From IMG/VR virus record IMGVR_UViG_3300042484_002041, positions 1 to 64,000 of that record: DNA of 64,000 nt. One strand, 5' to 3'. This document shows, in pieces, positions 590 to 54,536 of this stretch (positions are counted from its first letter, which is position 1; each line of letters opens with the position of its first letter). The notes beneath the pieces are model-generated. The model searched no databases and was not told where the DNA came from. It saw nothing but the letters and a program-made list of their open reading frames with translations. The DNA comes from a virus. The position numbers and the translations under genes were made by a program.

Positions 590-1336
590 ATGAAAATATT
601 GAATAAATTTTTAGAATTTAAAAAAACTCCATACATCATCACAGGAATTATATTCCTTTGTAGCTTAGTAGTTCTGAGCTGTTTTAAAAATGCAGAAACA
701 CAGTTGTCTATTCTAAATCAAGCGGTGTCATTCAGTCGCAACATGACTAAATCATCTGACGAGTTGACCAACTACGCCAGATATTTTGTAACAACCAAAA
801 ATGAACAGTGGAGAACAGAATTTAACCATGTTCTTAAAATACGCAACGGTTCCATAGCAGATGAGGCCGGCGTTACAAAATCATTCAAAGATAGATTAAA
901 AGAGGTTCCCTTCCTGCAATCTGAAATAAACATAATATTGAATGCAGAACAGTTAAGTAACAATCTTGCCAAGTTAGAAGTTGCTGCATTTGCCTGGATT
1001 GACAAAGGTAAACCAGAATATAATACCGAAGTGCAGGTACATCACTACACTGCGGCACAGATGTTAATGTTTGGTGATGACTATAAAAAATATAAAAAAG
1101 AAATCGTCAATGCCACAACTGAATTTTATTCGTCAGTGGTCAACAGGTTACAATCACAATATTTGTTTTACATGTCAGTGGCCTGGGCGATGATTATTGT
1201 TATCAATCTGAGTCTAATTTTACTAGTGATGGTTATTAAGCATAAAGAAACACCAGTAACCAAACCTAATAGAACTATTAAAAAACCACCAATCAAAAAG
1301 CCAGTTGTTAAAAAAAGCACAGGGACACAACCATGA
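590..1336 (+). CDS. Truncated chemoreceptor-like membrane sensor (four-helix-bundle type)
   Basis: The 248-residue product has a hydrophobic segment at about residues 14-33, an extracytoplasmic region of about 160 residues, and a second membrane segment at about 195-217. The start of the outer region contains SSDELTNYARYFVTT, which resembles the ligand-binding four-helix bundle of methyl-accepting chemotaxis proteins and some histidine kinases. After the second membrane segment there is no HAMP or signalling domain, only a Lys/Pro/Thr-rich tail of about 30 residues. It may be a stand-alone decoy or partner for host receptors, or an unrelated protein of similar architecture. The gene overlaps the next one by four bases (ATGA). 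Confidence 0.6.
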   Translation: MKILNKFLEFKKTPYIITGIIFLCSLVVLSCFKNAETQLSILNQAVSFSRNMTKSSDELTNYARYFVTTKNEQWRTEFNHVLKIRNGSIADEAGVTKSFKDRLKEVPFLQSEINIILNAEQLSNNLAKLEVAAFAWIDKGKPEYNTEVQVHHYTAAQMLMFGDDYKKYKKEIVNATTEFYSSVVNRLQSQYLFYMSVAWAMIIVINLSLILLVMVIKHKETPVTKPNRTIKKPPIKKPVVKKSTGTQP

Positions 1337-1794
1337 GAACACAAGAATTCATCACTGAGTTATTTGACCCAAAAACAGCCCTGCCCTTAAAGTGGGATCA
1401 GCAGTTTGCTGCCAGTCATAACGAAGTTCATGCCGAAGCAATGGACGAAGAGGGCCGGGAACTTTATATATCATTTGTCCCTGTGGGTTTTCGCAGCACT
1501 GTTATTGAGATAACATTCACCCGCGAAGGTAGTTATGATATTACTGGACAAGGCGATGCTGCCCGAGTATTGGCCACTGTTGCTAAAGCAATTGATATCT
1601 ATTTGCGTAAGTATAGCCCCAAATATGTTGTGTTCAGTTCCAAGGAAGGTAGCAGGACAGGGGTTTACTCGGCAATGGTACGCAGATTGCTCAAGGGCTA
1701 TACACAAGTACCACCTGATCAGTTTCCGCCTGGATTAGAAGAGTGGGGGGGAAACACACAAGGTGGGACCCCGTTTGTATTCAAGAGAATATGA
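1333..1794 (+). CDS. Alt N-terminal-domain-like protein with capsid-targeting-like N-terminus
   Basis: This 153-residue protein starts MRTQEFITELFDPKTALPL. From memory, the T4 Alt protein begins MELITELFDEDTTLPI, so the N-termini are very similar. A later block (YVVFSSKEGSRTGVYSAMVRRL, spread over residues ~98-119) matches the spacing of a similar block in Alt. Alt is the packaged T4 ADP-ribosyltransferase injected with the DNA; this protein covers only an Alt-like N-terminal part, without a catalytic ART domain. The start MRTQEFITE also fits the T4 capsid-targeting pattern. It overlaps the upstream gene by four bases. The Alt relation rests on recall, not alignment. Confidence 0.6.
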   Translation: MRTQEFITELFDPKTALPLKWDQQFAASHNEVHAEAMDEEGRELYISFVPVGFRSTVIEITFTREGSYDITGQGDAARVLATVAKAIDIYLRKYSPKYVVFSSKEGSRTGVYSAMVRRLLKGYTQVPPDQFPPGLEEWGGNTQGGTPFVFKRI

Positions 1795-4169: not shown

Positions 4170-4700
4170 ATGCAAGCACACGAATTCATATTTGAGTACG
4201 ACGAGGACTATCGAATACCTCATCGTGCGCCCATGCACGACAGTGGATCACCACTGTATGATGTGACTGGAACTTATCCGGATGACATATATGGCCCAAA
4301 TGGTGTTCAATATTATGGCACTAGAGAACCGTGGGATGCCCGATCAATTCATGTTATTAAGTTATGCAAGGGCAAGCCTAATCAAACTGTTCAAATTTTC
4401 CGTGCAGTGCCAAAAGAGGTTAAATCAAATACAATTAATCCAGGTGACTGGGTCACTGTTAGCAGGGAATATGCGGCCCAGCATGGCAAGGGACTGGGCA
4501 AGTATAAATTATTAAGCAAGATTGTTCCGGCTAAAACACTGTTCACCAATGGTGATAGCATTCATGAATGGGGATATGATCCGGGTAGTGCAGCACAACC
4601 TGTGGCAGAAGGCTGGAGCCAAAAATACAAGAGCAGCATCAACTGTGCTAAAACTCCAGACAAGGCCATATGTAAAGCCCGACGTAGGTGGAATTGCTAA
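4170..4700 (+). CDS. ADP-ribosyltransferase-like protein with capsid-targeting-like N-terminus
   Basis: The 176-residue protein begins MQAHEFIFE, similar to the capsid-targeting peptide of T4 internal proteins. The middle has the order IFRAVP (residues ~72-77), GDWVTVSREYAAQHG (~92-106) and NGDSIHEWGYDP (~126-137). This matches the R / S-T-S-like / E layout of small ADP-ribosyltransferase folds in phages. It then has PVAEGW, where a V-A-E site separates the domain from a Cys/Lys-rich C-terminal tail. An injected ADP-ribosyltransferase would parallel T4 Alt. The last base is the first base of the next ATG. The ART assignment is by motif only. Confidence 0.55.
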   Translation: MQAHEFIFEYDEDYRIPHRAPMHDSGSPLYDVTGTYPDDIYGPNGVQYYGTREPWDARSIHVIKLCKGKPNQTVQIFRAVPKEVKSNTINPGDWVTVSREYAAQHGKGLGKYKLLSKIVPAKTLFTNGDSIHEWGYDPGSAAQPVAEGWSQKYKSSINCAKTPDKAICKARRRWNC

Positions 4701-5005
4701 TGAGACTATATGAATTTGCACCCGGCTCTGGTAACAACAAAGGGCCCGGCCCGGCCGTGAATGAAAATCTTCGCGACTGGTTCAAAGACAAATGGGTACG
4801 ATTTGGGCCCGACGGTAAGATACGCGGCGACTGTGCTCGAGGTTCAGAATCTGAAGGCAAGCCCAAGTGTTTGCCACGGAGCAAGGCACATGCTCTAGGC
4901 AAAAAAGGTCGGGCAAGTGCAGCGGCCCGGAAACGACGTAAAGATCCCGATGCCAACCGTTCAGGCGCAGCAATCAATGTCAGCACAAAAGGTGCCAAGA
5001 AATGA
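4700..5005 (+). CDS. Conserved basic phage protein (RDWFKxKWVRFGPDG family)
   Basis: The start at 4700 overlaps the upstream stop (TAATG), giving 101 residues. The sequence RDWFKDKWVRFGPDGKIRG followed by CLPRSKAHALGKKGRASAA is a block I recognise from many aquatic phages, often as part of larger proteins. The C-terminal half is strongly basic (KKGRASAAARKRRKDP), consistent with DNA contact inside a capsid. The N-terminus MRLYEFAP belongs to the capsid-targeting-like set in this region. The exact role is unknown. Confidence 0.7.
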   Translation: MRLYEFAPGSGNNKGPGPAVNENLRDWFKDKWVRFGPDGKIRGDCARGSESEGKPKCLPRSKAHALGKKGRASAAARKRRKDPDANRSGAAINVSTKGAKK

Positions 5006-5653: not shown

Positions 5654-6331
5654 ATGAACATAAATGATATCATTACAGAATCACAACACACATGTCCGCA
5701 CTGCGGTGGCTCTGTGGTTGAATATTCAGAACTGACAGAAAAGAAAGATGCCTGCTACTACAAGGTCAAGGCTTCGGCAAAAGTATGGCCCAGTGCTTAT
5801 GCATCAGGTCGCTTGGTGCAGTGTCGCAAAAAAGGTGCTGCCAATTATGGCAACAAGTCAGAAAGTGTAGCAGAAAACTTTGCTGATGGTAAAGGTCCTG
5901 GACGTCCCGGAGACAGCGGTCGTCACGGTATTCCTAAGAATGCCACTATGGCTGAATTAGAAAAGGCCAGCCGTAGTGCAGGTCGTAAAGGGCAGCTGGC
6001 CCGTTGGCAATTGAACATGCGCAGAGGCAAGGCCAAGTTGTCAGAAATTAAACAACGCTTAGACGCCAAGTGCTGGCCGGGCACACGAAAAGAAGGCACC
6101 AAGATCAAAGGTGGCATCAGAGTCAACAACTGTGTGCCAGTGTCAGAAACAGGTGTTAAAACCCCCCAACTGAAAACTTATGCTGCCCGTGTCAAACTCA
6201 AACAAGCAGGATACACCAACATTGTTGATGCTACTGTAATGGCTCGAAACCCGGAGATGGCACGGCGCTTGCTGCACCAACTGTATGGCGGCAACAGCAG
6301 TGTGGTTGGACAGCCTAGAGAAATCAAGTAA
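5654..6331 (+). CDS. Conserved phage protein with zinc-ribbon start and VWPSAYASG block
   Basis: The 225-residue protein begins MNINDIITES, then a CPHCGG half zinc ribbon, then CYYKVKASAKVWPSAYASG, a block that recurs in many large aquatic phages. At residues ~72-76 it has ESVAE, a V-A-E site of the kind repeated in the 888-residue neighbour. A basic domain follows with GRHGIPKNATMAELEKA and a C-terminal basic tail. The layout (targeting-like start, V-A-E site, basic domain) suggests a processed internal protein; this is inference. Confidence 0.65.
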   Translation: MNINDIITESQHTCPHCGGSVVEYSELTEKKDACYYKVKASAKVWPSAYASGRLVQCRKKGAANYGNKSESVAENFADGKGPGRPGDSGRHGIPKNATMAELEKASRSAGRKGQLARWQLNMRRGKAKLSEIKQRLDAKCWPGTRKEGTKIKGGIRVNNCVPVSETGVKTPQLKTYAARVKLKQAGYTNIVDATVMARNPEMARRLLHQLYGGNSSVVGQPREIK

Positions 6332-6839: not shown

Positions 6840-7266
6840 TCTAAAAACACTGTTGGCCACACAATATGCTTTTGTTATTAAGGCACAGTACTTTCACTGG
6901 AACGTGGAAGGTCCGGACTTTGGGCAGCTACACAAGTTTTTCCAAAAAATCTACGAGAATGTAAACGGAGCAATTGACCCCACTGCCGAATACATCCGTA
7001 CCTTGGATGAATACACACCAGGCAGCTTTGAACGCTTCGTTGATCTGAGTCAGATCACAGGACAGACCAAGGTTCCTCGAGCTAGACTCATGCTGCAAGA
7101 ATTACTAGCCGACAATCAAACCATGCTCGATCTGTTGAACACCACTTTCCGGGCTGCTCAAAACGAGCGACAGGAAGGTATTGCGAATTTCATTGCCGAG
7201 CGCATCTCTGCACATGGCAAATTTTCCTGGCAACTCAAATCTTACCTGAAGGACGCACGGGCATGA
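6826..7266 (+). CDS. dps: Dps-like ferritin-fold protein
   Basis: From the ATG at 6826 the product has 146 residues, close to the usual Dps length of about 150-170. It has the ferroxidase-type pattern FHWNVEG at about residues 23-29, followed about 30 residues later by AEYIRTLDEYTPGS; both are characteristic of Dps. Dps proteins store iron and protect DNA from oxidative damage as 12-subunit shells. Homologues occur in T4-like phages, where host-takeover or DNA-protection roles have been proposed. It overlaps the following gene by four bases. Confidence 0.8.
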   Translation: MLGDDLKTLLATQYAFVIKAQYFHWNVEGPDFGQLHKFFQKIYENVNGAIDPTAEYIRTLDEYTPGSFERFVDLSQITGQTKVPRARLMLQELLADNQTMLDLLNTTFRAAQNERQEGIANFIAERISAHGKFSWQLKSYLKDARA

Positions 7267-9929
7267 GCTCTACTGATATCTCAAACATTCTAAAGCAGCT
7301 GGATGAACTGTCACAGCCCCGGCAGTTGCCGGCCCTGTTCAAGCCACACAACATCAGCCCTGTGCTGGGATCTCCAGAAAAGAAAAACCCCATGTCTGGC
7401 TACTTTGTGGGCGGCGAGGGTGCAGAGCCTGATGCCAAACCAGTCTGGTATGCAATTCGCCACCGTGACACGGGTCACACACTCAGCTCACACAAAGATG
7501 AAGCAGCGGCCCGTGATGAGATGGCTGGCCTGGGTGACCGGCGTCAAGAATACAAACTGGTGAAAACTTCTCGGCGTCCAAATCAGTTCGGACTTGATGA
7601 AGAAGACTCCGGTGGCCAACAATATGCTGTCACTATTGACGCAATTGATCACGGTGTATTGTCGCCCATCACTGTGACAGCATCAAACCCGGCTGCGGCC
7701 AAACAAAAAGCCATTGCAAGTGCAACAGCATCCATGGCCAAACGTGGGTATGAACTACAGGTTCGTAGTGCCGCTGTTAAATCTGCACAAGGTGTAGCAG
7801 AAGCAAAAGTTATTGGACATGTAGGAGATGTTGCCGGACACGGTAAAGTAGTTCAGTGTGCCAAATGTGAAACCGATCTCCGTGATGATCATGGATTTGC
7901 GTTGGACAATGGCACTTACATTTGCCGAAGCGGCAAGTGTTCTATGAGGCAGGCAAAGAACCGCCTGGCTGCGATGGCAGCACGAGGTGAAAAACCTCGT
8001 TGGAGAAAAGATGAAGGTGTGGCGGAAGCAACTGGTGACAAACGATTTGATTCGATGATGGGTAAGATCACGGGTGGTGCTGGCGCTAGGCAAGGTGTAG
8101 ATAGTTTGAATAAGTCTCTCACTGCAAGAACAGGCAGTAACCCCGAAACCGCATTGGCCAAATGGGGCCAGGAATTTATAAAATGGCTTGAAGATATTTG
8201 TCGTAACTTTGCCAAGCAAGGTGCAGATAGGATTAGTAAATTAGAAAATTTAGGTAACCTTGACGACGGTGGCGAAACTATGGCGCACTGGTTGATTGAG
8301 GTTGCTAAAAAGACCAATACCTCGGGCATCACACCGGCTGACATACAGGAATTTTCTAGCGAGTTTAATACCCACGGAATGTGGGCTTGGCAGCATTTCC
8401 CTATAGCCTGGAGTCAGAGCGAATGGCAAGACTACAAAGATCAATGGACTGGCCCCGATGGTTACATAGCCAGTCTAGGACAAGGTGTGGCGGAAGGCTC
8501 TTCATCGCCTGATGAATATAAACGTAGATTGGCTAGCATACAATCGTTAAGATACGATAATCCACAGGAATATGCAAAGCAATATCGTGCTTTACTCCAG
8601 GCGATGCCGGAAGAACACGCAGCACATGCTAATCAGGCACAGAAAGGTTCGTATTCTCCCGGAGAGCGCGGAGCAGGTACTGGTCGTATCGGGGGTGTGG
8701 CGGAAGAAGCAAGCCCGATGATTACGCCTCCTTCTAATCGCTTTGACAGCAAGCAAGAAGCATTTGCACATGCCAAAGCTCACGGCGGCAAGGTATTCAA
8801 GAGCACATATACAGATCCCAACACCGGAAACAAAAATGTATCTTTTGTTGTTAAAAAGGATCAAGATGTCGAGGAAGGCTGGAAACAAAAGCTTGGTGCA
8901 GCAGCGTTGGCAGGTTCAATGGCCATGGGTGCAAGTGCAGGCGGCGTCTCGTTGCCCGGGTCCGGTGGCAGCTTTACTCCCGACGCTCAACAAACCTTAA
9001 ATCAGCGTGTACAAGCAACAAAGGATGCCGAAGCTAAAGAGCATGAGGAAAGCATGGCTCGGTGGGGTATTGGATATTTAAAAGGAGTGGTGGCCGCAGG
9101 ACCAGGTTCGAGAGCATTAGTCCCATACGAAGATGCCAAGAAAGAATTAGCCCGTCGTGAGGCAGCATACCAAAAACGAGCTCAAGGTGTAGATGAAGTC
9201 GCACCCCCGGGTGCTCGGGCCGAACGCATGGTCAAGCACATCAAGCAAGGTTATGCCAAGGACGGCAAACTGACCGGTAAAGAAAAAGCCATTGCGTATG
9301 CCACCACATGGAAAGCACACAACCAGGGACAGGTAGAAGAGGCCAGCGCGGATCTGGTCGGATTTCACTTGGATACCGAACGTGCGTACAATGCTGTAAT
9401 GGAAAGATTTGGTGATGTGGTTGAGCAAGACCCTGAGTCGGGCATGATGACTGTACCTCGCCGCTACTGGCCGCAGCTGGAACAGGTTGCACATGATGCC
9501 GATGGTATTGGTGCTATCGAAGCCGGCGGTGAAAAAATTGCAGTAGACGAAGTTGAAGAGTCTTACTGGCAGCCCCAGATTGATGAGGCCATTGCACAGG
9601 AAGATGTGTTAGACAAAGAAAAGCGCCACCTGGGCGACTACCTGCAAAGTGTAGCCGATGCAGTCAAGCATGACGCTGCGCTATCCAGCAAAGACACACC
9701 TACCCACAGTGGCGACACAATTGGATCAGCAGTTAAAACTGTCACAACTGATGACGGACATGATCTCAAGATTCACGGTAACGAGGACGACGGCTTCCGT
9801 ATCAGTATCAAGGGTCGTCCCAGTTCGGTCAAGTTCAAGAGCCTAGACGAAGCCGGCATGGCATGTGAAATGTATCGCTCACATCGGCGCCACAAGCTGG
9901 AGTCAGCAGACTACATCGAGGAACAATAA
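7263..9929 (+). CDS. Modular 888-residue protein with repeated V-A-E linkers; candidate processed polyprotein
   Basis: The protein is a chain of unrelated modules separated by a recurrent linker. QGVAEA is at about residue 178, EGVAEA at 253, QGVAEG at 409, GGVAEE at 479, DVEEGW at 538, QGVDEV at 643, QVEEAS at 691 and EVEESY at 764. Modules include a four-cysteine domain between residues ~190 and 225 (CAKC ... CRSGKC), an Ala/Gly-rich hydrophobic stretch (~545-565), and AERMVKHIKQGYAKDGKLTG (~651-670), a block common in phages. The linkers fit a T4-type prohead protease site (hydrophobic-x-Glu). A packaged polyprotein cut into separate injected domains is my inference. Confidence 0.6.
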   Translation: MSSTDISNILKQLDELSQPRQLPALFKPHNISPVLGSPEKKNPMSGYFVGGEGAEPDAKPVWYAIRHRDTGHTLSSHKDEAAARDEMAGLGDRRQEYKLVKTSRRPNQFGLDEEDSGGQQYAVTIDAIDHGVLSPITVTASNPAAAKQKAIASATASMAKRGYELQVRSAAVKSAQGVAEAKVIGHVGDVAGHGKVVQCAKCETDLRDDHGFALDNGTYICRSGKCSMRQAKNRLAAMAARGEKPRWRKDEGVAEATGDKRFDSMMGKITGGAGARQGVDSLNKSLTARTGSNPETALAKWGQEFIKWLEDICRNFAKQGADRISKLENLGNLDDGGETMAHWLIEVAKKTNTSGITPADIQEFSSEFNTHGMWAWQHFPIAWSQSEWQDYKDQWTGPDGYIASLGQGVAEGSSSPDEYKRRLASIQSLRYDNPQEYAKQYRALLQAMPEEHAAHANQAQKGSYSPGERGAGTGRIGGVAEEASPMITPPSNRFDSKQEAFAHAKAHGGKVFKSTYTDPNTGNKNVSFVVKKDQDVEEGWKQKLGAAALAGSMAMGASAGGVSLPGSGGSFTPDAQQTLNQRVQATKDAEAKEHEESMARWGIGYLKGVVAAGPGSRALVPYEDAKKELARREAAYQKRAQGVDEVAPPGARAERMVKHIKQGYAKDGKLTGKEKAIAYATTWKAHNQGQVEEASADLVGFHLDTERAYNAVMERFGDVVEQDPESGMMTVPRRYWPQLEQVAHDADGIGAIEAGGEKIAVDEVEESYWQPQIDEAIAQEDVLDKEKRHLGDYLQSVADAVKHDAALSSKDTPTHSGDTIGSAVKTVTTDDGHDLKIHGNEDDGFRISIKGRPSSVKFKSLDEAGMACEMYRSHRRHKLESADYIEEQ

Positions 9930-46283: not shown

Positions 46284-46358
46284 GGGCCATTAATTCAACG
46301 GTTAGAATAGACGACTCATAATCGTTCAACGAGTGTTCGACTCACTCATGGCCTACCA
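46284..46358 (+). tRNA. tRNA-Met (anticodon CAT)
   Basis: Acceptor GGGCCAT pairs with ATGGCCT, followed by A and an encoded CCA. The anticodon loop is CTCATAA and the T-arm is GAGTG/CACTC around TTCGACT. It could also be the Ile tRNA with a modified C34. It lies apart from the main tRNA cluster. Confidence 0.9.
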
Positions 46359-46373
46359 TATTAATACTACACA

Positions 46374-46913
46374 ATGACCAATCCTGTACCAAGCACTAGC
46401 CCGGCGCATTATCATTTCGCAATTGAGAGTGCCCGTCGGCGAAGCCAAGATGCCAATGAGCCCGAAGCGGTGCAGTCTTATTTGCACCAGGTGCAGTACT
46501 ACGAGCAAGCAAGCAAGGAAAAAGCAATGCAAGAACAGGACCCCAAATGGCGCGAGAATAATCTAGAGTACGACCTACGGTCCACTGACTGGATCCTGGA
46601 CAAGGTACGGGCCAGTGATGTGTATGCTCAAAATATCTATGCTGCATTATGCAACAATGACTTTCAGCGTAACAATGTCATGCCTATCCTTAAAAACGAA
46701 ACATGGAGTTGCAGTTGGCGCCACGCAGGCGGAGTTGTGGCTGACATGATAGGCAAGGGTGACTACATGGATTGGTACTGCTCGGGCAGTATGAGCGGTA
46801 CAGCTTTGCGTACCGAAGATTACATCACGGGCTATGTAAATGAAAGCACAGTCACAGATGAAGTACTAGAAGACCTGTTCAAGCTTGGTTGGATTGTTAG
46901 CTCACTTGACTAA
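46374..46913 (+). CDS. Conserved phage hypothetical protein
   Basis: The 179-residue protein has WRENNLEYDLRSTDWILDKV and SCSWRHAGGVVADMIGKGDY then YCSGSMSG, and a C-terminal TDEVLEDLFKLGWIV. The C-terminal half resembles uncharacterised phage proteins. It starts 15 bases after a tRNA. Function unknown. Confidence 0.6.
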   Translation: MTNPVPSTSPAHYHFAIESARRRSQDANEPEAVQSYLHQVQYYEQASKEKAMQEQDPKWRENNLEYDLRSTDWILDKVRASDVYAQNIYAALCNNDFQRNNVMPILKNETWSCSWRHAGGVVADMIGKGDYMDWYCSGSMSGTALRTEDYITGYVNESTVTDEVLEDLFKLGWIVSSLD

Positions 46914-46916
46914 CAT

Positions 46917-47126
46917 ATGACAACCGTTGTAGACTGTGAAAAAGTCTTTGCCCGGACATTTGACCAACTTACTGTGTATCGCAGGCACTGCATGGCTGTG
47001 TGGTGCAGCGAGCGCATGACGCCGCTTGATCCGCAGGGCAAATATAACTGGTGGGTCGACGGCAATACCTTTCTCTTCCGTTGCGAGAAAGATCATATGC
47101 TGTTTGTACTGGCCTGGTGTGACTAA
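46917..47126 (+). CDS. Small hypothetical protein
   Basis: The 69-residue protein starts three bases after the previous stop. It is rich in Cys and Trp ([24 protein letters not shown]). No family recognised. Tight spacing and an unbroken frame support coding. Confidence 0.55.
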
Positions 47127-47140
47127 CCTTACTAACTAAT

Positions 47141-47968
47141 ATGAAAACTATTGAACTTGAGCATTTTAAAATTGACAGAAAACAGCCGTTAACAGTTATA
47201 GCCGGACCGTGTCAAATTGAAGACTTAACTCATGCTATGGCTATTGCGTTGGAAGTAAAACGCATTTGCGAAGATTTGAATGTTCAGTTCATTTATAAAA
47301 GTAGTTTTGATAAAGCAAATAGATCAAGCATAACTACCAGGCGCGGTGTGGGCATGGAACAAGGGTTGGAGATTTTAAAAACAGTCTCCAACAAATTAGG
47401 TGTTCCTACTATTACCGACATACACGAATCATCACAAGCGGGTATTGTGGCAGAATCAGTTAGTATGCTACAAATCCCCGCATTTTTATGCAGACAAACT
47501 GATTTACTTTTGGCTGCTGGCGCAACTGGCAAGCCCATTAATGTTAAAAAAGGACAATTTTTAGCGCCTTGGGATATGAAAAACGTTGCAGAAAAAATTG
47601 CCTCAACCGGCAATGACAACATAATGTTATGCGAAAGAGGATACAGTCATGGATACAATAATCTTGTGGTTGATATGCGCAGTTTACCTATTATGGCAAG
47701 TACTGGTTATCCCGTTGTCTTTGACTGTACACATAGTGTCCAACAACCCGGAGGACTCGGTGACAAATCTGGGGGAGACAGAAAAATGGTTCCCTTTCTA
47801 TCTAGAGCCGCAGTAGCAACTGGATGCGTGAGTGCAGTGTTTATTGAGACTCATGAGAATCCCGATAAAGCTCCTAGCGATGGACCAAATATGATTCCAT
47901 TACGAGACCTAAGAGTGCTGATAAGTCAGCTAAATTTTATTCATAACAGTGTTAGAAACTTTAACTAA
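47141..47968 (+). CDS. kdsA: 3-deoxy-D-manno-octulosonate 8-phosphate synthase (KdsA)
   Basis: The 275-residue protein compares with 284 in E. coli. It has [10 protein letters not shown] near residue 20, [14 protein letters not shown] near 50 with the substrate-binding Lys and Asn, PTITDIHE near 90, the LCERG near 164 and [11 protein letters not shown] near 190: all characteristic of KdsA. It condenses phosphoenolpyruvate with arabinose 5-phosphate to give Kdo 8-phosphate, the precursor of the inner sugar of lipopolysaccharide. A phage copy suggests altered host lipopolysaccharide or a Kdo-like sugar for phage use. The AT-rich sequence suggests acquisition. Confidence 0.93.
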
Positions 47969-48004
47969 AGAACAACAACTTACAGCGTTTAGCCTCAAGT
48001 GGGC

Positions 48005-48033
48005 TTGACAAGCGGTGTGATATCAGTTATACT
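48005..48033 (+). promoter_or_regulatory. Sigma70 promoter
   Basis: TTGACA and TATACT with a 17-base spacer, 25 bases before the ATG at 48059, which has its own AAGGA site. Confidence 0.85.
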
Positions 48034-48058
48034 TGTGAAAATTTATTAAGGACTTTGT

Positions 48059-48364
48059 ATGAGATGGCTCAATGGTTGGATGGAAGAACGATGCAGGAAC
48101 GCATTGGTACTGGTGCAACTTGAGGATTCAAAAATGCGCAACAGGATGGGAATGCAGTCGAAGTCGTCTCATGACGATGTCGAAAGTGATGACGGACTTA
48201 ACATTACCATCAGGCACGCAGTAGGTGGCAAAATTGTTACCTTTAGGCACTTCAATCACAGGACTGATCGTATTACCAATACACTGTATGTGATCCCCGA
48301 GGAACTGGACTTTGAACGAGAACTAGGAAAAATAATCACGCTCGAATCCATGCGGATGTCATGA
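48059..48364 (+). CDS. Conserved phage hypothetical protein
   Basis: The 101-residue protein has LNITIRHAVGGKIVTFRHFN then TNTLYVIPEELDFERELGKI. I recognise this arrangement as a common small phage protein. It has its own consensus promoter and overlaps the next gene by four bases. Confidence 0.65.
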   Translation: MRWLNGWMEERCRNALVLVQLEDSKMRNRMGMQSKSSHDDVESDDGLNITIRHAVGGKIVTFRHFNHRTDRITNTLYVIPEELDFERELGKIITLESMRMS

Positions 48365-48537
48365 ATACTTTGATTACAACTATCGTTGCCCTTGCGGCAG
48401 CGGTCTCGATTATCTCGTTTGTTGCTTGTGACGAGATCAAGGTAGTTACGCCCCCGGTTGAAACTGATTCAACTCTGGGTAAACTGCAAGTAAATAATAA
48501 CTCAAGTCAGCCAAATTGTGTCAACTACACAGGCTGA
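48361..48537 (+). CDS. Small predicted lipoprotein (58 aa)
   Basis: The ATG overlaps the upstream stop (ATGA). The product has an N-terminal hydrophobic segment (TTIVALAAAVSIISFVAC) ending in a lipobox-like FVAC, with the cysteine at residue 23. It would be anchored to the inner or outer membrane. Small phage lipoproteins often act in superinfection exclusion or lysis; that is an inference from size and location. Confidence 0.55.
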   Translation: MNTLITTIVALAAAVSIISFVACDEIKVVTPPVETDSTLGKLQVNNNSSQPNCVNYTG

Positions 48538-48554
48538 TTTAGCGTTATATATAT

Positions 48555-48574
48555 GTAGGGATAAAAATTCCTAC
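48555..48574 (+). other. Hairpin in the 5' region of the 48599 gene
   Basis: GTAGGGA and TTCCTAC pair with a short A-rich loop. It precedes the AAGGAAAC ribosome site of the next gene and could affect its translation. No T-run. Confidence 0.3.
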
Positions 48575-48598
48575 TCCAACCAAAAAGGAAACTTTAAC

Positions 48599-48832
48599 AT
48601 GAAATCAATCGTCACTCTTATCGCCACCCTGGCCACTGTTACTGCATTTGCCGCTGAACCAGTCAAGGCTGCTCCTGCTGCTGCTTCTGCAACAGCCGCT
48701 ACCCCTGCACCTGCTGCTTCTACGCCTGCCAAGAAAGCAGAAAAGAAGGCCGATGCTGCCAAGCCTGCTAAAAGCAAAGCATCGGCACCCAAGGCTGACG
48801 CCAAGCCTGCCGCACCTGCTGCAAGCAAGTAA
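48599..48832 (+). CDS. Exported Ala/Pro/Lys-rich low-complexity protein
   Basis: The 77-residue product starts with a signal peptide (KSIVTLIATLATVTAFA with AEP after it). It continues as an Ala/Pro/Lys/Ser repeat resembling histone H1 tails (PAKKAEKKADAAKPAKSK). It is probably periplasmic and unstructured. Similar exported proteins exist in betaproteobacteria. The frame stops at 48832, but the next frame continues open to 49028. Confidence 0.65.
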   Translation: MKSIVTLIATLATVTAFAAEPVKAAPAAASATAATPAPAASTPAKKAEKKADAAKPAKSKASAPKADAKPAAPAASK

Positions 48833-49028
48833 TTACACAGCAGACGATGAAGACGATGAGATTGGCATAGGCACAACTGATGTCTATGTAGGTTATCGTC
48901 GTCGCTCACTAGAAGAATGTGACGAACACTGCGAGCATCATGAAGATGGGTTCAGTGATTACGTAAAAACTAGACTGTTGATTGCTAGGTTGCTGGCATT
49001 AAGAAAGCGACAAGAAGTTTGGGGGTAA
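48816..49028 (+). CDS. Possible small acidic protein without a standard start, or frameshift extension of 48599
   Basis: The frame has no ATG, but its downstream part looks like protein: ADDEDDEIGIGTTDVYVGY, then ECDEHCEHHEDGF and DYVKTRLLIARLLALRKRQE. It ends at a terminator hairpin. It may use a rare start codon or be joined to the Ala-rich upstream protein by a +1 frameshift. The boundaries are uncertain. Confidence 0.3.
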   Translation: MLQASNYTADDEDDEIGIGTTDVYVGYRRRSLEECDEHCEHHEDGFSDYVKTRLLIARLLALRKRQEVWG

Positions 49029-49043
49029 TACCCCAAACTTTTC
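49015..49043 (+). terminator. Rho-independent terminator
   Basis: A perfect 10-bp stem (AAGTTTGGGG / CCCCAAACTT) with loop GTAATA is followed by TTTTC. It closes the transcription unit that began at 48005. Confidence 0.85.
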
Positions 49044-49065
49044 TTACGAAGTAAAAAGAAAACCA

Positions 49066-50022
49066 ATGACAAAAGCGTTGATTACATTTGGATGCAGTTG
49101 GACATTTGGCGTAGGGGTTGGATACGAAGACCCTATGTCATTAACTGACTATAAAACTATAAATCAGTCCGTTGATGTGAATAACAATCTTAGTTTTCGT
49201 GGTATTCTTAGTCAACGGCATGGATTCAAAAATATAAATTTCTCCGAGGCGGGATCTAGCAATCGACGCCAATTTAGATTGGCAACTGAATTTTTCAATG
49301 GTAAAAAGTTTCAAGATCTACAAAACTGCGGGACTAAAATTGTTGTGCTATGGGGGATGACTTCAACCGCTCGAAATGAAGTATTTCTGAGTGAAGAGAA
49401 TAAACTCTATAATTTTATGTACAGTTCGGTAGAAAATATCGGGAGACAGCATCAAGCTGTTGACAATCAAGTTAGACAGTTTTTTGCCAAGCATATGTAT
49501 AGTCATGAACACGAAATGTTTACACTAGCGCACGAGATGGCACATTGGAATACGTTTTTTAAGTCACTTGGTATTGAGAATTATTGGTATGATACATTTA
49601 ATCATCATGACTACACTATCAATAGCCCGGCCTTGCTAGAGTTCAAAAAAAACTATACTGATTGCGCTGGACCAGACTGGCCCAGTTGGCAGAACTTTGT
49701 TGATAAAAAATTTGATGGTATTGATAGTAGCGTAATCGATGAAATTTTAAATACAAACTTTGAATTTGTAAATAATTTGTCAATCACAAATTTTGTAATT
49801 GATCATCCCACTGACCGAGATCTTATGAGTCAACTGGTGATGCGCAACGGTAGCGATCAGTTTGATCGTAATTATCATCTTAGTCATTGGGAAGTTGATG
49901 GCGATCGAGTAAAATATTTGATTGATCTGAAACTTCTTAATCCTTACAGCTTTCATCCTACCAAACTTGGACACGAACAAATAGCAAACATGTTTGACCA
50001 CTTATTTGAAAAAACTAGCTGA
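49066..50022 (+). CDS. SGNH-hydrolase-like protein (copy 2)
   Basis: The 318-residue protein has block I as ITFGCSWTFGVGVGYED (serine in GCS, residues ~7-23) and block V as SFHPTKLGHEQIANM (His near residue 301). An AGSSNRRQ segment near 63 fits the oxyanion Gly/Asn region. SGNH proteins are esterases or acyltransferases often acting on polysaccharides. The gene is AT-rich and stands alone between a terminator and the tRNA region. Confidence 0.65.
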   Translation: MTKALITFGCSWTFGVGVGYEDPMSLTDYKTINQSVDVNNNLSFRGILSQRHGFKNINFSEAGSSNRRQFRLATEFFNGKKFQDLQNCGTKIVVLWGMTSTARNEVFLSEENKLYNFMYSSVENIGRQHQAVDNQVRQFFAKHMYSHEHEMFTLAHEMAHWNTFFKSLGIENYWYDTFNHHDYTINSPALLEFKKNYTDCAGPDWPSWQNFVDKKFDGIDSSVIDEILNTNFEFVNNLSITNFVIDHPTDRDLMSQLVMRNGSDQFDRNYHLSHWEVDGDRVKYLIDLKLLNPYSFHPTKLGHEQIANMFDHLFEKTS

Positions 50023-50040
50023 CTTTTGATAAAACTCAGG

Positions 50041-50069
50041 TTGACAAGGAATAAATAAAAGCATATAAT
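50041..50069 (+). promoter_or_regulatory. Consensus sigma70 promoter
   Basis: Perfect TTGACA and TATAAT with a 17-base spacer. The ATG of a 41-codon frame is 10 bases downstream without a ribosome site. Confidence 0.85.
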
Positions 50070-50079
50070 TGACACTGTT

Positions 50080-50205
50080 ATGAAAAACTTCACACTATCA
50101 CTCTTATCCAAGCACGAACAGATGTGCCCCCGCGCCACCACATGGCTAGGTCCGGTATCATATATTCGCGCATTCGAGAATAGTGATACCAGGGGGTCTG
50201 AGTAG
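50080..50205 (+). CDS. Possible leaderless mini-gene (41 aa) or non-coding transcript
   Basis: The frame begins MKNFTLSLLSKHEQMCPRA and ends at TAG 50203-50205. Against coding, the 3' part forms a strong hairpin (GGTATCA ... TGATACC, with inner TATTC/GAATA, about 50155-50192). The transcript ends at a terminator 60 bases later. It may be a small structured RNA instead of a gene. Confidence 0.3.
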   Translation: MKNFTLSLLSKHEQMCPRATTWLGPVSYIRAFENSDTRGSE

Positions 50206-50232
50206 ACTGAGTCGTAAGATTCAAATACACAG

Positions 50233-50265
50233 ACCCTGGCTCGAAAGACCCAGGGTTTGTCTTTT
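50233..50265 (+). terminator. Rho-independent terminator
   Basis: ACCCTGG and CCAGGGT pair with a 10-base loop, followed by TTGTCTTTT. It ends the short transcript started at about 50076. Confidence 0.75.
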
Positions 50266-50288
50266 AGTGAAACAGGAATACAGGAGAG

Positions 50289-50317
50289 TTGACAACAAAT
50301 TGAAAACACTGTATAAT
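50289..50317 (+). promoter_or_regulatory. Consensus sigma70 promoter for a structured RNA
   Basis: Perfect TTGACA and TATAAT with a 17-base spacer. No gene follows; the transcript would begin at about 50324 and run through a structured region into tRNA-Glu. Confidence 0.88.
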
Positions 50318-50645
50318 AAGGCGCTAGGGAATTAAAAATCCTAGCAAAGTGTGATAAGAGGGAACGAGGCCCTCGCTCTGCACTTTAAACAATGGAGCAA
50401 ACGGGCGTGTTAGGGGCATAAAATCTGTGGCGGGAACGCAGAGAGTCAGATCCTAATAGTAAAGTACATTGGTTGTCAGTGTGCTTTACTATACACATTT
50501 TTTGTAAAAAAGAGTGTGTACAGAGAAGCGCGCCATGATCTAATCTGAAGTCCAAACATCTGATGCGGACGGAACCTGTGTGTTGATTATGCTGCACACC
50601 TCGCAGCACGGAGCCAGGATAGCGTGTTTCTCTGTACCTACTTAA
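50318..50645 (+). ncRNA. Candidate large structured non-coding RNA upstream of tRNA-Glu
   Basis: These ~328 bases follow a consensus promoter and hold no convincing ORF. Helices readable by eye: GCTAGG/CCTAGC near the start; AAAGTG (50346-50351) with CACTTT (50481 region is separate; partner at 50381-50386); GAGGG/CCCTC inside it; TTAGG/CCTAA around ATCTG/CAGAT; TAGTAAAG (50457-50464) with CTTTACTA (50484-50491); TACACA with TGTGTA; and a 15-bp helix between 50519-50533 and 50622-50636, enclosing TGCTGC/GCAGCA and GTCC/GGAC. It is not RNase P RNA or tmRNA by their conserved cores. Its place beside tRNAs recalls the large ornate phage RNAs GOLLD and ROOL, but identity is unproven. Confidence 0.6.
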
Positions 50646-50650
50646 TTAAA

Positions 50651-50726
50651 GTCTGGTTCGTCTATCGGTTTAGGACGCTGCCCTTTCAAGGCGGAAAGAC
50701 GGGTTCGATTCCCGTACCGGGCACCA
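50651..50726 (+). tRNA. tRNA-Glu (TTC)
   Basis: Acceptor GTCTGGT with ACCGGGC (two G-T pairs), A and CCA; anticodon loop CTTTCAA; T-loop TTCGATT. Confidence 0.92.
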
Positions 50727-50732
50727 AATAAT

Positions 50733-50808
50733 CTCTCCCTAGTTCATGTTGGCAGAACACTGGTCTCCAAAACCAGAGAGCGCGGATCGTCACCGTGGGG
50801 GGAGGCCA
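50733..50808 (+). tRNA. tRNA-Trp (CCA), T-loop ATCGTCA
   Basis: Acceptor CTCTCCC with GGGGGAG, G and CCA; anticodon loop CTCCAAA. The T-arm is CGCGG/CCGTG around ATCGTCA, in which the usual T54/A58 are A54/T58. Confidence 0.88.
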
Positions 50809-50825
50809 AACTTTAAGGAACTGAT

Positions 50826-51605
50826 ATGAAAATCGGTATGTTCGGCGATAGTTATATTGCATACCTAAAAAATACTTGGATAGAGCATCTTAACTCTAAA
50901 TCTCAAGACTACAAGATTCAAACTTACGGCAAAGGCGGATCAAACTTATTCTATGCTATAGATCAGTTCAATCAAGCAGTTGATGTAAGAAAGAAAAAAT
51001 ACGATGTTGTTGTTTTTACATTCACATGGCACCAACGATGGTACAGTGCATGGCGGTATAGAAATGAACAATATTGTGCTTTTAGCGAATCAAGAAAATT
51101 TAGTACATATCAGTCTGTTGTCGAGGCGCACGATCCTTCTATTTACAACGACGATACGGATGCCGAATTTATAGCAACTATCCCGAAATTCTACGAATAC
51201 ATGTACGATGATCGGTGGACTAGATTTAATTACGAATTAGAAGTTAAGTATATTTTAGAACTACCGGATCGTTATCCGGATACCAAGTTTATTTTCTTGC
51301 CAAATACAGAATATTCACAAGACCTAGCAAAGAAACATTTCAACAAGGGTGTATTAGTTGATTTTGCATTTGAAACTGTTAGTATCTCGGAACCCGGGGC
51401 GCCAGCCAAGCTCAAGCCCGGGGAGAGAATTAATGTCGAGCGTGACAACCGACTCGGGCATTTAAATCAAAGCAATCATCGTGCAGTCGGTGAACTAATG
51501 TATGACATAATTTCTAACTACCAGGCAGTGGAAAATAAGATTTATCAAGTTGATTTTGATAAATTTGATATGATATTCCCTACCAAGTCTGTTAGCACAA
51601 CATAA
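50826..51605 (+). CDS. SGNH-hydrolase-like protein (copy 3)
   Basis: In this 259-residue protein, block I is IGMFGDSYIAYLKN (Ser at residue ~8), KGGSN near 38 gives the Gly/Asn region and block V is GHLNQSNHRAVGELM near residue 210. Among the five copies this one has the most typical GDS start. It is inserted between tRNA-Trp and a tRNA-Met and is AT-rich relative to the tRNAs. Confidence 0.7.
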   Translation: MKIGMFGDSYIAYLKNTWIEHLNSKSQDYKIQTYGKGGSNLFYAIDQFNQAVDVRKKKYDVVVFTFTWHQRWYSAWRYRNEQYCAFSESRKFSTYQSVVEAHDPSIYNDDTDAEFIATIPKFYEYMYDDRWTRFNYELEVKYILELPDRYPDTKFIFLPNTEYSQDLAKKHFNKGVLVDFAFETVSISEPGAPAKLKPGERINVERDNRLGHLNQSNHRAVGELMYDIISNYQAVENKIYQVDFDKFDMIFPTKSVSTT

Positions 51606-51611
51606 GTAAAT

Positions 51612-51686
51612 CGCGGGATAGGAAAGCAGTAATCCGCTTGGCTCATAACCAAGAGATCGGCAGTGCGAGTCTGCCTCCCGCAACCA
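51612..51686 (+). tRNA. tRNA-Met (CAT), initiator-like acceptor
   Basis: Acceptor CGCGGGA with TCCCGCA leaves a C1-A72 mismatch, the hallmark of bacterial initiator tRNA. However, the anticodon stem is CTTGG/CCAAG rather than three G-C pairs. Anticodon loop CTCATAA, encoded CCA. It may be an initiator variant. Confidence 0.85.
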
Positions 51687-51691
51687 AGTTT

Positions 51692-52330
51692 ATGAAACCA
51701 TATTTAATAGTGTACCAAGGCGGAACCTGCGGCAATTTAATGGCAGGCTTAATTCATACGCTACAAACAAATACCGCAGTCGAAGTACGGCAAGATGGAT
51801 CACTACACGAACAGAGGCATGGACCGGTGCACGTATACTATCCGTGGAAAATTCTAATAGAAAATGATCTAAATAAAAATTATAACACTGCACTAACAAA
51901 TATTTTTATTACGCACGATAGAAATATTAGAGACTTTGCATCTAGTAACGATTTAACAGTTATTAAAATCGTATACACAGACGACTCGAAGAAGTTAATT
52001 CGTCAGTTAGTATCAGAAAAAGCACAATTAACTAACCTAAAACAATGGTATCTATCACTTCCGGCCTTGCCGTTCAAGGACGTTGATTTAGATAACATCA
52101 ATGATGATACTAGAGTAGTCAAGTACCTTTATCGATGCTTAGATGATCGTATAGATAACTTTATGGACGCAGTAACATATTATCATCATACTGTTAATTT
52201 TGAAGATATTTGGACAGACAATGAAAATTTACTCAACCAATTGAGTAACATAACTGGATTAAAAAGTAACGAAAAAACAGTGCAATTAATTCAAAATTAT
52301 GTTACTATCAATAATAGATTGTATAAATGA
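51692..52330 (+). CDS. Predicted P-loop, sulfotransferase-like protein (copy 2)
   Basis: The ATG at 51692 is six bases after the tRNA; the earlier in-frame start at 51638 lies inside the tRNA and is unlikely. The 212-residue product starts KPYLIVYQGGTCGNLMAGLI, a strand followed by a Gly-rich loop as in sulfotransferases. A late YYHHTVNFEDIW fits the pattern before the C-terminal helix. It resembles proteins at 34785 and 55121 in layout. AT-rich cargo gene. Confidence 0.5.
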   Translation: MKPYLIVYQGGTCGNLMAGLIHTLQTNTAVEVRQDGSLHEQRHGPVHVYYPWKILIENDLNKNYNTALTNIFITHDRNIRDFASSNDLTVIKIVYTDDSKKLIRQLVSEKAQLTNLKQWYLSLPALPFKDVDLDNINDDTRVVKYLYRCLDDRIDNFMDAVTYYHHTVNFEDIWTDNENLLNQLSNITGLKSNEKTVQLIQNYVTINNRLYK

Positions 52331-52367
52331 GTAGCATATCAGCTACCAGATTTTTAAGTAGCACAAT

Positions 52368-52443
52368 TCCGGTCAAGCAAACACGGTGTAGGCAGAGGAC
52401 TGTTAATCCTTGAAGCCTGGTTCGATTCCAGGGACCGGAGCCA
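52368..52443 (+). tRNA. tRNA-Asn (GTT)
   Basis: Acceptor TCCGGTC with GACCGGA, G and CCA; anticodon loop CTGTTAA; T-loop TTCGATT. Confidence 0.93.
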
Positions 52444-52451
52444 CACATACT

Positions 52452-52528
52452 GCACAGATACCAAAGAGGCCTAATGGCATGGATTGCAAATCCGTTGTTC
52501 GTGAGTTCGAATCTCACTCTGTGCTCCA
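52452..52528 (+). tRNA. tRNA-Cys (GCA)
   Basis: Acceptor GCACAGA with TCTGTGC, T and CCA; anticodon loop TTGCAAA; T-loop TTCGAAT. Confidence 0.92.
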
Positions 52529-52541
52529 AACTCGACACAAC

Positions 52542-52635
52542 GGAAGCGTGGCAGAGCCCGGTTTAATGCACCTGACTTGAAATCAGACGAATGTAGCGAT
52601 ATGTTCCGTGAGTTCGAATCTCACCGCTTCTACCA
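52542..52635 (+). tRNA. tRNA-Ser (TGA)
   Basis: Acceptor GGAAGCG with CGCTTCT, A and CCA; anticodon loop CTTGAAA; long variable arm; T-loop TTCGAAT. The discriminator is A instead of the usual G. Confidence 0.9.
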
Positions 52636-52643
52636 GTTACTGG

Positions 52644-52672
52644 TTGACAATTAAATCCAAGTACGCTATACT
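52644..52672 (+). promoter_or_regulatory. tRNA-operon promoter
   Basis: TTGACA and TATACT with a 17-base spacer. The spacer begins ATTAA as in the other promoters of this family. It is followed by a hairpin and boxA. Confidence 0.88.
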
Positions 52673-52679
52673 AGAGTCA

Positions 52680-52713
52680 TGTTGTCGGTAACTCAGCAAC
52701 AGCTCTTTAAAAA
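52680..52713 (+). promoter_or_regulatory. Hairpin plus boxA antitermination-like site
   Basis: TGTTG (52680-52684) pairs with CAACA (52697-52701), directly followed by GCTCTTTAAAAA (52702-52713). The latter matches the rrn boxA consensus TGCTCTTTAACA closely. The arrangement parallels boxB-boxA of ribosomal RNA operons. Confidence 0.65.
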
Positions 52714-52742
52714 CACAAGCAAGCGTTTGTAAAGATACAATC

Positions 52743-52827
52743 GCCCGGGTGATGAAATGGTATACATAGAAGACTTAAAATCTTCCGCCGTAATGGCATG
52801 CGGGTTCGAGTCCCGCCCCGGGCACCA
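52743..52827 (+). tRNA. tRNA-Leu (TAA)
   Basis: Acceptor GCCCGGG with CCCGGGC, A and CCA; anticodon loop CTTAAAA; variable arm; T-loop TTCGAGT. First tRNA after the boxA site. Confidence 0.92.
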
Positions 52828-52836
52828 AACATATAC

Positions 52837-52912
52837 AGGGGTTTCGCCAAGTTGGTAAGGCATCGGATTTTGATTCCGACATGCGGTGGTTCGAATCCAT
52901 CAACCCCTACCA
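52837..52912 (+). tRNA. tRNA-Gln (TTG)
   Basis: Acceptor AGGGGTT with AACCCCT, A and CCA; anticodon loop TTTTGAT; T-loop TTCGAAT. Confidence 0.9.
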
Positions 52913-52919
52913 AAATTTA

Positions 52920-52994
52920 GGTCTCAAAGTGTTCATGGACGCATACATGCCTGTCACGCATGAGGAAGGGGATCGTTACCCCTTGGGACCGCCA
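52920..52994 (+). tRNA. tRNA-Asp (GTC), T-loop ATCGTTA
   Basis: Acceptor GGTCTCA with TGGGACC, G and CCA; anticodon stem CATGC/GCATG around CTGTCAC. T-arm AGGGG/CCCCT around ATCGTTA, with A54 and T58 swapped from the usual T54 and A58. Confidence 0.88.
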
Positions 52995-53034
52995 ATTTTT
53001 CATTGGTGCTGTTAGTGATATAGATACCTTAGGT

Positions 53035-53109
53035 GTGACTGTAGTGTAGTGGTCTGCACATTGCTCTGTGAAAGCGATAGTATGGGATCGTTCCCCATCA
53101 GTCACCCCT
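53035..53109 (+). tRNA. tRNA-His (GTG), T-loop ATCGTTC, no full CCA
   Basis: Acceptor GTGACTG pairs with CAGTCAC; anticodon stem TTGCT/AGCGA around CTGTGAA; T-arm ATGGG/CCCAT around ATCGTTC. The 3' end reads CCCT, so CCA is not fully encoded and would be added by the host. No G is present at position -1. Confidence 0.8.
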
Positions 53110-53160
53110 AAGTTATTTGCGATATGGGATTTTCCCCACTTCACCCCAACATTGTTTTAT

Positions 53161-53234
53161 ACCCGGTTAGCTCAAAGGTAGAGCAATGGCTTGATAAGCC
53201 ATAGACAGAGGATCGTTACCTTTACTGGGTACCA
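53161..53234 (+). tRNA. tRNA-Ile (GAT), T-loop ATCGTTA
   Basis: Acceptor ACCCGGT with ACTGGGT, A and CCA; anticodon stem ATGGC/GCCAT around TTGATAA; T-arm AGAGG/CCTTT around ATCGTTA. Confidence 0.9.
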
Positions 53235-53242
53235 ATATACAT

Positions 53243-53318
53243 GCTGCTTTAGCTGATGTGGTCATAGCGGAGGTTTGAAGAACCTTGGAACGTGGTTCGA
53301 TTCCACGAGGCAGCACCA
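53243..53318 (+). tRNA. tRNA-Phe (GAA)
   Basis: Acceptor GCTGCTT with AGGCAGC, A and CCA; anticodon loop TTGAAGA; T-loop TTCGATT. Confidence 0.92.
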
Positions 53319-53320
53319 GA

Positions 53321-54049: not shown

Positions 54050-54073
54050 TGAAATATTTATTAGTGTAAGAAT

Positions 54074-54157
54074 GCGGACGTGATGTAATTGGTAGCCATG
54101 CGAGTCTTAGAAGCTCGTGCCTTGTGCGTGAGAGTTCGAGTCTCTCCGTCCGCACCA
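54074..54157 (+). tRNA. tRNA-Leu (TAG)
   Basis: Acceptor GCGGACG with CGTCCGC, A and CCA; anticodon loop CTTAGAA; variable arm; T-loop TTCGAGT. Confidence 0.92.
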
Positions 54158-54179
54158 TGAGATATATAGTAGTATAAAG

Positions 54180-54254
54180 GCCTGGTTAGCTCAGGGGTAG
54201 AGCGTCTCCTTTACACGGAGAGGGTCCGCGGTTCGAAACCGTGACCAGGTACCA
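54180..54254 (+). tRNA. tRNA-Val (TAC)
   Basis: Acceptor GCCTGGT with ACCAGGT (G-T first pair), A and CCA; anticodon stem TCTCC/GGAGA around TTTACAC; T-loop TTCGAAA. Confidence 0.93.
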
Positions 54255-54260
54255 AAGTTT

Positions 54261-54528: not shown

Positions 54529-54536
54529 AGTTTTTT

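Follow-up and report, generated by a model that had tools for sequence, protein, structure and literature searches.

A probable packaged cargo polyprotein of a freshwater T4-like jumbo phage, with linkers that may serve both as head-protease sites and as recombination seams

The internal proteins IPI-III and Alt of bacteriophage T4 are targeted to the head by a capsid-targeting sequence (CTS), cleaved by the prohead protease gp21 and injected into the host. The T4 protease cleaves after L/I-x-E (PMC9026906), and its relatives in giant phages cleave after S-x-E or A-x-E (PMC9026906, PMC5694885, PMC10052503). The polyvalent proteins form a second group and are thought to be injected and then split, their release being ascribed to an embedded metallopeptidase (PMC5512222). 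Packaged, injected proteins let large phages disarm and reprogram their hosts within the first minutes, and they are hard to recognise beyond T4, P1 and a few giants. Here we analyse a stretch of 64,000 nucleotides (the window), positions 1 to 64,000 of IMG/VR virus record IMGVR_UViG_3300042484_002041, which is a 167,584-bp linear contig of a large freshwater virus of bacteria and ends inside a portal gene. On its + strand lies an open reading frame (ORF) of 888 amino acids (aa), P0001, with its ATG at 7263 and its stop codon ending at 9929. We consider it probable that P0001 is a capsid-packaged cargo polyprotein cut by a gp21-type protease, and that the site of cleavage is at the same time a recombination seam.

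P0001 is made up of nine cassettes with ten junctions, eight of them clear and two degenerate (Table 1). An initial annotation of the DNA had described a modular protein with eight V-A-E-type linkers, and the ORF and all eight are present in the sequence; the motif [GD]V[AED]E occurs at 6 sites, compared with a mean of 0.15 and a maximum of 3 in 2000 shuffles. The degenerate junctions, GAE/P at residue 55 and LDE/E at residue 113 (a slash marks the candidate cut), were recognised through homologous modules behind intact linkers in loci L284 and L175. Related loci, L007-L268, were fetched with P0001 peptides, the portal and two linker 18-mers; they derive from large freshwater phages, on contigs of up to 364 kb, and the nearest isolates by portal are jumbo phages such as PA5oct and 121Q. 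In the fetched loci, 173 ORFs have two or more strong linkers, and as many as ten linkers occur in one ORF. The linker QGVAE/G is common to related ORFs and the modules are shuffled between them, and relatives with the same linkers and swapped modules, which the initial annotation had predicted, are abundant. A first catalogue holds 485 internal modules (median 78 aa), the common families having many different neighbours; it includes a few DsbA-like false positives (families 10 and 17), small proteins that had clustered as polyproteins and were left out of the CTS comparison below. P0001's nine cassettes are distributed independently among the relatives, and cassette 4 is found elsewhere at ~83% aa identity with differing neighbours and linkers on both sides. 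When bacterial and archaeal genomes were searched with the linker 18-mer, 26 single hits were obtained, none of them in a polyprotein-like ORF, which fits chance. As a separate observation, the ATGDERFDTMM module starts a second time in one ORF of L029 (9536-11389), at the contig end, suggesting a tandem cassette duplication.

The DNA of the linker is conserved beyond what its peptide demands. At 69 distinct GVAE sites in bait-free loci, GGT is used in 91% compared with 44% elsewhere in the same ORFs (p = 8e-17), GTG in 83% compared with 17% (p = 6e-32) and the Ala codon GCG in 84% compared with 7% (p = 1e-54), so that the similarity of linker DNA holds more strongly than had been claimed for it. 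In a larger linker set the information falls to background a few bases beyond GAG-CAAGGTGTGGCGGAAGGC. Of 1263 ends of similarity between polyproteins, 33% lie no more than 20 bp from a linker in each of the two partners, as against 1.3% for the random positions that served as controls, which makes breaks at the linker 25 times commoner than the random expectation; the ends are not all independent, and 30% lie at linkers after thinning to 684. Compared with the window ORF, which is identical on the independently assembled contig L007, the ORF in L009 lacks exactly cassette 4 and one linker, with 231/237 and 192/200 nucleotides of the flanks identical, and L011 has one cassette more than L009 (flanks 138/140 and 286/300 nucleotides identical). 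The clustering of breakpoints and these precise cassette insertions and deletions (L007/L009, L009/L011) bear out the earlier suggestion that linker DNA acts as a recombination seam.

Such strong DNA conservation and breakpoint clustering could also mean that the linker is a recombination seam only, joining the parts of an uncut multidomain protein in which the VAE peptide is no cutting site and owes its conservation to the DNA. The codon positions change unequally, however, and the conservation is therefore not that of DNA only. Of 491 linker sites chosen by DNA similarity alone, in a scan confined to ORFs that have two strong sites, 487 have V/I/L/M/F at P3 and 482 have Glu at P1, whereas P4 varies and P2 may be A, E, S, T, V or G. 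Amino acid-changing bases deviate in 11/1473 at P3/P1 and in 117/1964 at P2/P4 (p=3.6e-18), and in bait-free loci only in 0/216 and 16/288 respectively (p=1.3e-4); codon changes at P3 and P1 are confined to synonymous ones and to exchanges among hydrophobics, whereas P2, P4 and P5 change freely. A looser scan (13/18, no seed requirement), in which chance matches diluted the P3/P1 signal, was replaced. This pattern of substitution indicates that hydrophobic-x-Glu at the linker is under selection.

Modules that stand alone lead to the same residue. Modules otherwise seen in the interior of polyproteins directly follow a short N-terminus in 53 ORFs, and with linker and N-terminus aligned by module homology alone, the residue opposite the linker P1 is Glu in 37 of the 53, all with a hydrophobic P3, compared with 5 and 2 in the adjacent columns. 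Examples of such pairs are MRATEFITE/AFDKPYELLRW and QGLTE/AFDKPYELLRW, MKAREFITE/AVEDRTSYQVAKIL and QGVAE/AVEDRTSYQVAKIL, and, with its first member in the window, MNINDIITE/SQHTCPHCGG and QGVAE/EQHSCPHCNG. These N-termini resemble the starts of T4 ipII/ipIII (MKTYQEFIAEA) and Alt (MELITELFDEDTTLP), and CTS-like starts are found in 57/101 linker polyproteins compared with 162/594 controls (p=2.5e-8). Judged by these alignments, the linker stands in for the site at which the CTS is cleaved. The alignment of the linker Glu with the CTS cleavage Glu, together with the behavior of the P3 and P1 codons, makes it unlikely that the linker is a seam and nothing else.

It is quite unlikely that the linker is the site of a dedicated recombinase or mobile element, the cassettes then forming an integron-like system within an ORF. 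Whole cassettes are the units of gain and loss, a core gene is split by the array (see below), and the synonymous positions are kept though modules have diverged to ~83% identity or less. On direct reading, however, the 18-mer has no inverted repeat, and no associated integrase was recognised, no systematic integrase search having been made; ordinary direct-repeat recombination also gives precise unit loss, and the linkers tolerate substitutions. We regard as very unlikely the idea that the conserved codons act in translation, with the purine-rich GGAAGG of the seam as a Shine-Dalgarno-like pause that aids co-translational folding without any cleavage: the choice of GTG-GCG-GAA is unusual for these ORFs, but a pause leaves the seam breakpoints, the hydrophobic-x-Glu constraint and the CTS equivalence unexplained. 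Chimeric assembly at short repeats can be dismissed as a source of these ORFs with near certainty, for although every polyprotein contig is metagenomic (IMG/VR records), P0001 is the same in two assemblies, other architectures recur across assemblies (L015/L018/L021; L027/L030/L031/L035), an 18-bp repeat is short for assembly errors, and the same module families occur in isolated cyanophages.

A protease of the appropriate type is encoded in the closest relatives. gp21 (PF03420, 4e-24) directly follows the portal gene in 75 of the 80 relatives found through the portal, which are up to 89% identical in portal over the full match, and the head cluster continues with scaffold and gp23 (PF07068, 2e-99). 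The capsid propeptide of these relatives carries LLE/S, LME/G and LKE/N and the protease N-terminus carries VVE/G, and several of the gp21-bearing contigs carry the linker too. Virions of a related phage, moreover, contain homologous modules: in purified particles of cyanophage S-CREM2, mass spectrometry detected gp160 and gp137 (PMC10665884), which are partly composed of the same module families as the linker polyproteins, and several non-structural S-CREM2 virion proteins have CTS-like starts (MKNFSSFLTEADE, MKDLHSFLTEQ, KRFDAFLTEEE). Two further observations may be recorded here. In L042 (18529-20292) a linker polyprotein lies ~2.6 kb downstream of the major capsid gene, which in some relatives connects the system with the head cluster. 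In S-CREM2 (OR473000) the virion-detected non-structural proteins gp6, gp12, gp13, gp14, gp136 and gp154 have in common an N-terminal F[LMF]xE that is apparently a capsid-targeting sequence of cyanophages; the wording "capsid targeting" is absent from the S-CREM2 paper (PMC10665884).

We propose that a T4-like jumbo phage makes a small core protein carrying nine unrelated inserted modules, separated by hydrophobic-x-Glu/small sites that are mostly QGVAE/G or QGVAE/A. The precursor most likely enters the prohead core, a gp21-type (S77) prohead protease would then cut it at the linkers, and the fragments would go into the host with the DNA, like the T4 internal proteins and Alt. Recombination at the linker DNA CAAGGTGTGGCGGAAGGC, a seam common to these ORFs, would insert, remove or swap entire cassettes without loss of frame. 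Since the seam also codes for the cut site, any newly acquired cassette would be released as a separate protein, regardless of what flanks it. The sequences show the architecture, the exchange of modules, the seam in the DNA, the constraint on hydrophobic-x-Glu, the correspondence with CTS sites and the gp21 gene of relatives, and published data place homologous modules in virions of a related phage; that P0001 itself is packaged, cut and injected, and what its modules do, we infer.

A number of observations weigh against the proposal. Linker P3 is mostly Val, and T4 gp21 prefers Leu/Ile there. The gp21-like protease that the initial annotation had asked for is present in the nearest relatives' head cluster and was not seen in a Pfam search of the 167,584-bp record, in which the controls were silent too and which stops within the portal gene. 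In this contig a long distance separates the array gene from the head genes, and upstream of the array there is no exact T4-type late promoter (TATAAATA). The published virion proteomics concern another phage, S-CREM2, and homologous modules, and its virion proteins match modules of P0001's neighbour genes and of other polyproteins only; the enrichment of CTS-like starts among them is weak (6/15 compared with 2/29, p=0.013). P0001's own start, MSSTDISNILKQLDE followed by /L, is only loosely CTS-like and not canonical, and its modules have no Pfam match above threshold and no assigned function. On balance, the interpretation in the initial annotation is supported in part: each of its computational predictions has been borne out, with cleavage and packaging of P0001 reached by reasoning from those predictions.

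The modular reading of P0001 given in the initial annotation stands, but the core gene that hosts the inserted array had been missed. The two ends of the ORF (Table 1) correspond to uninterrupted core proteins of 158-290 aa in L263, L173, L118, L192, L191, L196, L269, L295, L296 and L015, and by this comparison the cassette array is an insertion into a small, pre-existing and conserved core gene. The relatives have a ~95-aa gene, often a 66-70-aa gene with a CTS-like start, a Dps/ferritin-like gene and then the core gene, followed in most by a separate linker polyprotein, and by DsbA-like and DNA polymerase genes where the contig reaches far enough; the order in the window matches (6376, 6660, 6715, 7263, 10230, 12260), but core and array form one ORF. 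The predicted structure of the core protein (mean predicted local distance difference test score, pLDDT, 65) has a confident C-terminal beta/alpha domain, and its confidence is low where the array would be inserted, at about residues 43-85; a Foldseek comparison of the model with the PDB gave no significant match, and the core protein had no match in annotated phages. The core C-terminus carries a conserved DY[ILM][ED]E[AKQR] (window 9909-9926; L263, L118, L192, L269 and others), which may act as a signal for targeting or processing at that end. Cleavage at the C-terminus also occurs in T4 Alt. In L008 (9557-11236) the core C-half and the last cassettes stand behind a different N-terminus and different upstream genes, an arrangement which implies that the array can move as a block.

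Table 1. Features of the P0001 array and of the CTS-type genes near it, in window coordinates
Feature	Position	Strand	Remarks
CTS-type cargo gene, MRTQEFITELFDPKTALP, DUF6934	1333..1794	+	PF22028 1.7e-7; N-terminus like T4 Alt MELITELFDEDTTLP
CTS-type gene, ParB-C-like domain, then PVAE/GWSQKYKSSINC.. module	4170..4700	+	phrog_2579 5.8e-39
CTS-type gene, start MRLYEFAPGS, LRDWF module	4688..5005	+	39% over 74 aa to S-CREM2 virion protein gp160
CTS-type gene MNINDIITE/SQHTCPHCGG.., KKDACYYK, SVAE/NFADGK and KCWPG modules	5654..6331	+	73% over 48 aa to S-CREM2 gp160
Small CTS-type ORF, MRYKEFLPESMGGTTTSGSVA, 59 aa	6660..6839	+	66-70 aa counterparts in the same place in L118, L269
Core gene N-half, residues 1-55, MSSTDISNILKQLDE..LPALFKP..GYFVGGEGAE	7263..7427	+	Contiguous with C-half in compact relatives
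Junction GAE/P (degenerate)	7419..7427	+	Next module begins after KGVAE/GSEQYYAI in L284
Cassette 1, residues 56-113, PDAKPVWYAIRHRDTGHTLSSHKDE..	7428..7601	+	Residues 62-114 match internal module of L284 2817-5525
Junction LDE/E (degenerate)	7593..7601	+	Next module begins after QGVAE/GSEQQYAVTID in L175
Cassette 2, residues 114-180	7602..7802	+	69% identity to internal module of L175 880-2409
Linker QGVAE/A	7788..7802	+	CAAGGTGTAGCAGAAGCA, 16/18 vs consensus
Cassette 3, residues 181-255	7803..8027	+	Same order in L009
Linker EGVAE/A	8013..8027	+	GAAGGTGTGGCGGAAGCA, 15/18 vs consensus
Cassette 4, residues 256-411, ATGDKRFDSMM..	8028..8495	+	Many other contigs, linker-flanked; precise deletion in L009
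Linker QGVAE/G	8481..8495	+	CAAGGTGTGGCGGAAGGC, 18/18 vs consensus
Cassette 5, residues 412-481	8496..8705	+	Joined straight to cassette 3 in L009
Linker GGVAE/E	8691..8705	+	L007 and L008 diverge upstream of linker
Cassette 6, residues 482-538	8706..8876	+	Common to L008, L009
Linker QDVEE/G	8862..8876	+	CAAGATGTCGAGGAAGGC, 15/18 vs consensus
Cassette 7, residues 539-645, GWKQKLGAAALAGSMAMG..	8877..9197	+	Family behind VAE/ or VDE/ in other polyproteins too
Linker QGVDE/V	9183..9197	+	QGVAE/V at same site in L009, L011; extra cassette exactly there in L011
Cassette 8, residues 646-693, AERMVKHIKQGYAKDGKLTGKEKAIAYATTWKAHN	9198..9341	+	phrog_30733 E=3e-9
Junction GQVEE/A	9327..9341	+	Read from sequence
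Cassette 9, residues 694-766	9342..9560	+	Common to L008-L012; 42% identity to stretch of L268 ORF
Junction EVEE/S	9549..9560	+	Borders core C-half
Core gene C-half, residues 767-888, ending DYIEEQ, plus stop	9561..9929	+	51% identity to L263 residues 79-196, 50% to L173

The genes that begin at 4170 and 5654 had been noted for CTS-like starts and a VAE site each; both starts are real, the sites are PVAE/ and SVAE/, and the genes at 1333, 6660 and 4688 (MRLYEF) begin similarly. The family of the 1333 gene is also a VAE-linked module in L036, the module of the 5654 gene is otherwise found behind QGVAE/ in L203, and the C-terminus of the 4170 gene is common to S-CREM2 virion protein gp137 (65% over 26 aa). 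Within P0001, the CxxC..C motifs of cassette 3 make zinc binding possible, the AlphaFold model of cassette 4 (mean pLDDT 44) is a helical prediction of low confidence that is not interpretable, and cassette 8 has 46-70% identity to parts of cyanophage proteins such as S-WAM2 AOV61865, which has the CTS-like start MKTFKQLREE. Modules of other polyproteins contain GNAT, cytidylyltransferase, DUF6934, DUF5661 and DUF6321 domains, among them is also a match to a phage kinase family that inhibits host transcription, and a match to Kinase-PolyVal in L036 is sub-threshold only. By analogy with polyvalent proteins (PMC5512222), these enzyme-like modules would fit cargo for early host takeover.

Elsewhere in the window, a run of paralogous ORFs of 82-105 aa, each ending in FGVEE and most of which overlap by a few bases, lies at 63249-64000 and in L001 3249-5355 (genome 63249-65355). 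The region 46284-58153 holds 27 tRNA genes in 12 kb, covering most amino acids, with unknown ORFs between them, and 62293-62658 encodes an alanine/tryptophan repeat protein (AWDAAWDAAYTAARDAA...).

If our reading of P0001 is right, it would be a clear case of a prokaryotic-virus polyprotein in which the protease site is the recombination site, and the shared site would explain how modules exchanged in frame still work. The seam that marks each cargo border would be an address label by which hundreds of uncharacterised and probably injected modules could be extracted from metagenomes, listed and tested singly. More tentatively, freshwater jumbo phages may draw on a common, mobile library in which injectable proteins are kept as in-frame cassettes, with one short DNA element serving as recombination site (possibly for dedicated machinery) and, after translation, as the head-protease site that releases each cargo. 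This would be a plug-and-play polyprotein platform found in many phage lineages; we put it forward as a possibility, not as the expected outcome.

A search of the open literature for such a system, with subscription journals and preprints mostly outside its scope, returned only the analogues named here. Like the mosaicism of phage protein domains, the array reflects recent shuffling of fragments between phages, though the abstract of that study names no single universal seam that encodes a protease site too (Smug et al. 2023, PMC10684548). Many head proteins of phiKZ and SPN3US are likewise cut after x-x-Glu by a gp21 relative, with a different P3 (S-x-E, A-x-E), but there the propeptides are mostly terminal (13/14 mapped SPN3US sites) and shuffled cassette arrays are absent. 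Polyvalent proteins share the many unrelated domains per polypeptide, some of them enzymatic (GNAT, kinase) (Iyer et al. 2017, PMC5512222), whereas P0001 has no MPTase, ArdC-N, LPD or Kinase-PolyVal Pfam match above threshold, and its uniform repeated linker, "linker" not being a word in PMC5512222, fits a head protease. Modular virion proteins of T4-like cyanophages (S-CREM2 gp160/gp137, S-RIM2 AOO07245, S-SRM01 QPX48171) contain the same small module families, often behind x-x-Glu, but have fewer modules and less shuffling, and the examples compared have no QGVAE DNA seam. The likeness to T4 IPI-III and Alt extends to hydrophobic-x-Glu/small sites, to cargo that varies between phages, to the occurrence of the same modules singly after a CTS-like N-terminus whose cut site lines up with that of the linker, and to a gp21-type protease in relatives; unlike T4, where there is one cargo per gene and processing is terminal, many modules here share one ORF, the sites are internal, and the site is a conserved DNA seam.

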